37,517 bases of DNA from Clostridiales bacterium (GTDB taxonomy: Bacteria; Bacillota; Clostridia; Mahellales; Mahellaceae): NCBI GenBank assembly GCA_030156435.1, contig JASGMM010000011.1:1-37517 (forward strand). The letters are read 5' to 3'. The translations under genes were made by a program, and so were the position numbers. The notes under the pieces are model-generated. The model was not told where the DNA came from, ran no database searches, and was given only the letters and a program-made list of their open reading frames with translations. Below, piece after piece: positions 32,893-37,517 of the stretch (its first letter is position 1; every line of letters starts with the position of its first letter).

Positions 32893-32911
32893 ATTTGTCT
32901 ATTCTCCTTGC

Positions 32912-32949
32912 AATAAGTAAAGGACTGTCCAGACAGTCCTTTACTTATT
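32912..32949 (-). terminator. Perfect 18-bp inverted repeat at the rplS stop codon, possible terminator or processing hairpin
   Basis: AATAAGTAAAGGACTGTC (32912-32929) and its exact reverse complement (32932-32949) are two bases apart. The rplS stop codon (32941-32943) lies inside one arm. No long T-run follows, so full termination is unlikely. Partial attenuation or RNA processing between rplS and lepB is more plausible. Confidence 0.6.
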
Positions 32950-33291
32950 GATCCCTTCTTCTTTGATCTTAGCAGCCTTTCCGGTCAAACCGCGCAGATA
33001 ATAAAGCTTGGCTCTTCTTACTTTGCCACGCCTTAATACTTCTATATGGTCTATTTTGGGGGAATGTAAGGGAAACGTCCTTTCCACGCCCACACCATAA
33101 GATACACGGCGCACTGTGAAGCTTTCCCTTATGCCGCCATGCTGCCTTTTAATAACCACGCCTTCAAAGGCCTGAAGTCTTTCGCGGTTTCCTTCAACAA
33201 CTTTAACAAAAACCTTTACCGTATCTCCTACCTTAAATTCCGGTATATCGGTTCTAATTTGTTCTGCCTCTAACGTCCTTAATATATCCAA
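32941..33291 (-). CDS. rplS: 50S ribosomal protein L19
   Basis: L19 lies at the 30S-50S interface. From a TTG start at 33291 the protein has 116 residues, the usual family length, beginning [20 protein letters not shown]. The TTG is preceded by AAAGGAGG at seven bases. An ATG at 33309 would place that site inside the coding region, so it is rejected. Conserved sequences include [39 protein letters not shown] and [17 protein letters not shown]. It begins one base after the trmD stop. Confidence 0.96.
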
Positions 33292-36740: not shown

Positions 36741-36770
36741 ATTATAGTATAACCTACATAGTTTTGTCAA
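36741..36770 (-). promoter_or_regulatory. Sigma-A promoter of the ylxM-ffh operon
   Basis: TTGACA (36770-36765) and TATAAT (36746-36741) on the minus strand are separated by 18 bases. The start should be near 36734, some 37 bases before the ylxM TTG. This gives the SRP/ribosome block a promoter independent of whatever lies upstream. Confidence 0.8.
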
Positions 36771-36885
36771 TCAATATCTAGCAGCGCCATAGGTGAAGCA
36801 CGAATTTAAGATGAGCAATAAATCGGGCTTAGAGGGACACTGAAAATAAATTTTTTCTCAAATAAAAGCTGGATTAATTTTTGCC

Positions 36886-36951
36886 CATATGTTATGATAG
36901 TATTAGGAAGGTAGGGATAATCATCAATGAACGATACTATCATAACATATG
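36886..36951 (+). repeat. Perfect 18-bp inverted repeat enclosing the start codon of the DUF4338 gene
   Basis: CATATGTTATGATAGTAT (36886-36903) and its exact reverse complement (36934-36951) flank a 30-base loop that holds the GGAAGG stretch and the ATG at 36927. In RNA this would be a very stable hairpin whose 3' arm is codons 3 to 9. It is not a typical terminator, because no T-run follows. Confidence 0.85.
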
Positions 36952-37517
36952 CTGGAAGAATCTTCACCAGCGAAGATATAGAGCTCATTAGATGGGCTGC
37001 AAAAACATATCCATCATTATCAAGACAAGAATTAGTCAGCACAGTGTGCGAATTCTTGGGTTGGACGACACCTGCAGGGCGGCCCAAAACAATACAATGC
37101 AATTTATTACTCGAAAAGCTCGAAACCGAAGGGATTATTCAGTTGCCTCCGGTTAGACATTTTATGAAAAGAAAACTTTCTACCAAAAATCAGAATATGG
37201 AGTTTAACACAAATCTGATAGAAGGAGAAAGCCGAGAATTTGAGCCTGTATATCTGGAAATCGCCAAAGCGGGTGAATCTATCAACCGGTGGAAAGCATA
37301 TGTAAATCAGTATCATATGCTCGGCTACAAGAATGTGTTCGGCTCTCAACTACATTATTTCATAAAATCAGGAGACAAAGAACTGGGGTGTTTGCAATTT
37401 TCAGCATCGGCATGGGCTCTCGAGCATAGAGACCGATGGATCGGCTGGAGTATACAAGACAAGAAAGAACGTTTGCACCTTATCATAAACAACAGCCGCT
37501 TTCTTATCTTCCCATGG
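36927..37517 (+). CDS. DUF4338 (DruA-like) protein, N-terminal part (runs off the window)
   Basis: The first 197 residues are present and intact. Residues about 15-75 look like a winged-helix DNA-binding region (SRQELVSTVCEFLGWTTPAG, RPKTIQCNLLLEKLETEGII). From about 120 comes the DUF4338 core: YHMLGYKNVFGSQLHYFIKS, then LGCLQFSASAWALEHRDRWI, then LIINNSRFLIFPW. This family is DruA of the Druantia anti-phage system, but single genes of this kind also recur in genomes in mobile-element settings, so the family does not prove defence. It is divergent from ylxM. Its start codon lies in the loop of a strong hairpin. The ribosome binding site is poorly spaced. No partner gene is visible in the window. 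Confidence 0.8.
   Translation, partial: MNDTIITYAGRIFTSEDIELIRWAAKTYPSLSRQELVSTVCEFLGWTTPAGRPKTIQCNLLLEKLETEGIIQLPPVRHFMKRKLSTKNQNMEFNTNLIEGESREFEPVYLEIAKAGESINRWKAYVNQYHMLGYKNVFGSQLHYFIKSGDKELGCLQFSASAWALEHRDRWIGWSIQDKKERLHLIINNSRFLIFPW

Follow-up and report, generated by a model that had tools for sequence, protein, structure and literature searches.

A hairpin over the start of a druA-like gene as a candidate translational lock of an insertion sequence

Analysis of the window, the whole 37,517-nt stretch of contig JASGMM010000011.1 from a Clostridiales bacterium, suggests that a hairpin over the start of a druA-like gene is the built-in translational lock of an insertion sequence (IS) with a druA-transposase operon, directed against transcription from outside; we assign this reading a probability of roughly 0.7. 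The druA-like gene is the first gene of a multicopy IS, as identified by its ends, target duplications and transposase. The features of the window copy, all on the + strand, are as follows.

36788..36805, +: left terminal inverted repeat CATAGGTGAAGCACGAAT, a diverged form of CAG...TGAAGCATGAAA
36870..36875, +: -35-like hexamer TGGATT, 17 bp before the -10 (TG[G/A]AC[A] in relatives)
36886..36903, +: hairpin 5′ arm, overlapping the -10 and discriminator
36890..36898, +: extended -10 element TGT-TATGAT, a conserved signature
36906..36916, +: ribosome binding region GGAAGGTAGGG in the loop, kept in relatives as a GGAAAGGTAGG block
36927..37517, +: druA-like gene (PF14236), incomplete, with the contig ending at 37517 inside it
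36934..36951, +: hairpin 3′ arm, in codons 3 to 9 of the druA-like gene

The hairpin encloses the start codon and overlaps a promoter

The two arms of the inverted repeat are 18 nt each and 100% complementary, and the ATG at 36927 sits in the 30-nt loop between them. The first-pass annotation had described a perfect 18-bp inverted repeat bracketing the start of a DUF4338 (DruA-like) gene and including its codons 3 to 9; both arms were located as described, the 3′ arm begins at the second base of codon 3 and ends at the first base of codon 9, and the gene identity was confirmed by the PF14236 match, which scored 72 bits (E 5e-20) for the partial gene of the window and 154 bits for the second copy of the element on contig C49, against a gathering score of 27. 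The whole window contains only one other perfect 18-bp repeat with a loop of ≤60 nt, and by a hand estimate ~4e-5 such repeats are expected by chance. This second repeat, at 32911-32950 with a loop of 4 nt, is probably an ordinary terminator. The RNA fold of the hairpin region gave z = -3.7, with 0 of 200 shuffles as good, and a tighter region around the hairpin gave z = -4.1 (p 0.002). An Rfam search returned no match.

The copies share a promoter-like block consisting of TG[G/A]AC, a 17-18 bp spacer, TGn-TAnnnT, the discriminator and GGAAAGGTAGG. Across 15 relatives, the TG and TA...T of the extended -10 are nearly invariant while the spacer drifts, and the -35-like hexamer is kept at 17-18 bp spacing. 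This hexamer is weak in the window copy, where the promoter scan did not call the copy's own TGGATT; in the related copy L064 the scan calls TGAACA-18-TATGAT with the TG. From these signals, transcription would start at ~36904-36906, about 7 nt past the -10. As the 5′ arm coincides with the -10 and discriminator, it would be missing from transcripts of the element's own promoter and present in read-through RNA.

A multicopy insertion sequence carries the druA-like gene

A DNA search of the same genome located a second element copy on contig C49, 73% identical to the window copy over the shared part. The C49 copy is a complete IS of 2773 bp with the ends CAGGGGTGAAG.../...CTTCACCCCTG, flanked by the 9-bp target duplication GCGATGCTC. 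It carries a 302-aa DruA-like gene and then, after a short gap, a 482-aa transposase gene with DDE_Tnp_1_assoc, and its hairpin is 17 bp long with the third pair changed on both sides, from T-A to A-T. With respect to the druA-like gene, the left terminal inverted repeat of the window copy is placed like the left end of C49; the right end of the window copy is off the contig. Matching terminal inverted repeats were found in C49 and in the relatives L053, L054, L056, L057 and L060; the right ends of the L051, L052, L055 and L059 copies were searched for and not found. Further 9-bp target duplications were identified for L060 (TCCATAAAA) and L054 (ACTATTTGT), and none was found on inspection of L057. 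DDE_Tnp_1_assoc was detected in C49, L053 and L056, and DDE_Tnp_1 in L056. In most relatives the stop of the druA-like gene and the start of the transposase gene overlap (GATGAGTAA or similar). In Syntrophomonas, a 1299-bp copy (L054 3864-5162) with terminal repeats and a 9-bp duplication holds the druA-like gene only, without a transposase gene. The ends of six further contigs of the Clostridiales genome (C96, C89, C85, C67, C37 and C7) share one 96-bp sequence, identical in all of them, which is the left end of a related element, and the element family is therefore multicopy in this genome; the interior belonging to this left end was not found in the assembly.

By contig scan and genome searches, element copies were found in Clostridia, Syntrophomonas, Clostridium bowmanii and other Firmicutes MAGs, and a search of viral contigs yielded distant DruA proteins only. 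Two near relatives of the Clostridia element, L053 and L057, stand in MAGs labelled Desulfobulbaceae and Chitinophagaceae, either through horizontal transfer or through a binning error. In its 9-bp duplication and CAG-type ends the element resembles the ISAs1 family. It is not assigned to ISAs1, since the NCBIfam ISAs1 model NF033564 (cut-off 70) scored 17 bits for L053 and gave no match for C49. On a Thiodictyon plasmid, a single reading frame (L148 2908-4242) consists of a partial DruA domain fused to an ISAs1 transposase. In the papers searched on DUF4338/DruA in connection with transposases, ISs or ISAs1, no description of this druA-transposase IS was found.

In the window, the IS left end lies ~18 bp upstream of the -35 of a perfect 12/12 promoter (TTGACA-18-TATAAT; 36741-36770, minus strand) that serves the leftward ylxM-ffh genes. 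These genes are transcribed away from the element, and thus no read-through is expected from them here.

DruA-like genes are best known from the Druantia defence system, and the gene order described above puts them at the head of an IS operon that looks active. In C49 the place after the druA-like gene is taken by a transposase gene instead of DruE or another Druantia partner. The PADLOC DruA profile matched the present protein weakly, at 18 bits. A structure model of the protein, only moderate in view of its mean pLDDT of 67, has structural matches to GNAT acetyltransferases and weaker ones to Mom of phage Mu; the Pfam Mom profile gave E 6e-4, below the Mom cut-off. A GNAT assignment for DUF4338 has already been published (PMC10853773).

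Pairing of the arms is maintained across relatives

A hairpin at the gene start was predicted in 18 of 18 aligned copies, and its 5′ arm is formed by the -10 and the discriminator in every one of them. In shuffle tests 14 of the 18 copies reached p < 0.02, with z from -7.1 to about 0; the Desulfobulbaceae copy, Gx485 and two C. bowmanii copies did not reach p < 0.05. The 3′ arm takes one of two alternative placements, an outer one in codons 3-7 or an inner one just before or over the ATG. The outer type comprises the window copy, C49, Syntrophomonas, Ruminiclostridium, Gx485, C. bowmanii, G916 and G828, and the inner type comprises Mahella C30, UBA4882, UBA4874, SRR1561995 and Desulfobulbaceae; UBA4821 and Chitinophagaceae combine parts of the outer and inner forms, and UBA3567 has a shifted form. 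The discriminators AGTATT, AATATT, AGTCTT and AGACTT each occur with a matching 3′ arm, and in Gx485 the pairing is kept even with GKSV at codons 2-5 in place of the usual DDTI. Hairpin evolution can thus be seen, in which the promoter-bound 5′ arm takes new 3′ partners and pairing is retained. Among more distant DruA-like genes, G002 and G025 have no such hairpin, and G050, G132 and YP3 are doubtful.

Selection on the pairing was assessed in three ways. In a covariation set of 8 divergent outer-type sequences with 17 pairs, 91.2% of cells were paired, compared with ≤60% in slid registers; none of 500 shuffles reached the native percentage or the native covariation score, and 2 of 500 reached the count of pairs changed on both sides (6 of 17). 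When 5′ and 3′ halves were swapped among lineages, the native total was better than that of all 200,000 permutations, both for 14 and for 10 representatives; the protein tree of these lineages is nearly unresolved and star-like, and the lineages are therefore largely independent. Among synonymous recodings, the native pairing fell in the best 0.5-2.4% for 7 of 8 outer-type members and at 8.9% for the remaining one, G828. The inner-type Mahella copy, an internal control because codon pairing is not expected there, stood at 46%. Collectively, the comparative sequence evidence strongly supports pairing of the arms in RNA. The first-pass annotation had proposed an alignment of homologues for compensatory changes, and the 6 doubly changed pairs are such changes; its option of translation gating gains support from them, from the pairing-favouring codons and from the predicted closure of the ribosome site described below.

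Predicted closure of the ribosome site in read-through RNA, and alternative readings

In the proposed mechanism, the extended -10 promoter of the element would start RNA at ~36905, just beyond the 5′ arm, so that native mRNA would form no hairpin and would be translated. RNA from a flanking host promoter would carry both arms, fold and close the ribosome site of the druA-like gene. The transposase would presumably be shut as well, by translational coupling, because its start overlaps or closely follows the end of the druA-like gene. In the window copy, the predicted cost of opening positions -20 to +19 is 22.6 kcal/mol for read-through RNA versus 6.1 for RNA with the native start. Opening of this region was costlier in read-through than in native-start RNA in 17 of 17 tested copies, and in 15 of 17 the read-through cost exceeded that of the arm-scrambled control by >2 sd. 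The narrower region -15 to +4 had been tried first, before the wider 30S footprint, and its opening alone was not costlier in read-through RNA of outer-type copies; with the start codon in the loop, the lock would therefore have to act through the wider 30S footprint. In C. bowmanii-type copies an intrinsic terminator lies between left end and promoter: it was called by the scan in L064 (3882-3908) and noted also in L065 and L136, with similar stems in L065 and G916. The C. bowmanii terminator may constitute a second shield against read-through.

Selected pairing would fit any RNA-level use, and the hairpin might instead form in the normal mRNA of the element and act as a brake on druA-like translation, whether constitutive or regulated (by temperature, antisense RNA or protein). 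An inhibitory 5′ UTR structure of this kind, thought to be opened by antisense RNA, is known from ISPpu9 (PMC8450116). Nevertheless, the brake is unlikely: the 5′ arm contains the conserved extended -10 and would be missing from RNA made from that promoter, and no conserved promoter was identified further upstream. A farther-reaching reading, beyond the read-through lock, holds that the IS type is widespread, that its transposase has an obligate partner in the DruA-like protein, with a GNAT fold and a distant likeness to Mu Mom, and that the start hairpin is a switch read by this protein or another factor. We consider it distinctly unlikely; if true, druA-only copies with intact ends would be mobilised in trans.

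An operator function of the repeat at the DNA level is very unlikely; the dimeric repressor could then be the DruA-like protein itself, with its predicted N-terminal helical (HTH-like) domain. The overlap with the predicted promoter and the perfect dyad of the window copy would suit an operator. However, relatives differ in the sequence of the arms, in the length of the loop and in where the 3′ arm lies (codons 3-7 or just before the ATG) and yet retain the pairing, and the tolerated G-U pairs suit RNA rather than an operator; the dimeric repressor site named in the first-pass annotation is disfavoured on account of this variation. We give hardly any credence to the 3′ arm being an inverted -10 copy from which an antisense RNA is transcribed leftward, in the manner of IS10 RNA-OUT: on the minus strand the window 3′ arm does read TGTTATGAT, but by sequence inspection Gx485 and G828 keep the pairing and lose the reverse -10. 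Just as little credence goes to a DNA structure recognised in transposition or a functionless by-product of promoter and protein constraints, which the location within a mobile element would allow, given that ordinary terminal inverted repeats ~100 bp away and 9-bp target duplications speak against the recognition hairpin for mobility suggested earlier, and that the results on synonymous codons, covariation and half-swapping go beyond what promoter and protein constraints acting separately would yield.

Comparison with known systems

The read-through lock proposed here has its closest counterpart in IS10/Tn10 and IS50/Tn5, for which protection from external promoters was reportedly described by Davis, Simons and Kleckner in 1985. 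The likeness lies in a hairpin over the translation start of the first gene, formed only in RNA from outside promoters, as is predicted here. The present hairpin differs in that it would protect a druA-like gene at the head of the operon, before the transposase gene, in that its 5′ arm serves at once as -10 and discriminator of the element's own promoter, and in that its 3′ arm has moved between lineages. An IS10/IS50-like working of the hairpin is well supported by the sequence comparisons, and we infer a role in read-through; that it acts as an actual lock of this type is a prediction, which includes a predicted start site and a predicted translation block. A classical mechanism of IS self-restraint would thereby be extended to a druA-transposase element, for which no description was found in the literature searched.

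Repression of the IS200 transposase by RNA secondary structure is said to have been described by Beuzon in 1999. IS200 likewise hides the ribosome site of an IS gene in a 5′ RNA structure, in an unrelated element and sequence; unlike the structure proposed here, that of IS200 also belongs to its own mRNA. Precedents in IS10, IS50 and IS200 for RNA structures covering the start are cited in PMC2965389. Class 1 'mobile attenuators' are 5′ terminators of ISs (PMC2965389), which likewise limit expression of an IS in a transcribed region, and the C. bowmanii copies have such a terminator; the start hairpin differs in not being a terminator, as it encloses the start codon and is followed by no T-run. 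Finally, ISPpu9 resembles the present element in that an IS gene start is closed by a 5′ UTR fold, and differs in that its fold forms in native mRNA and that two small RNAs are involved (PMC8450116).
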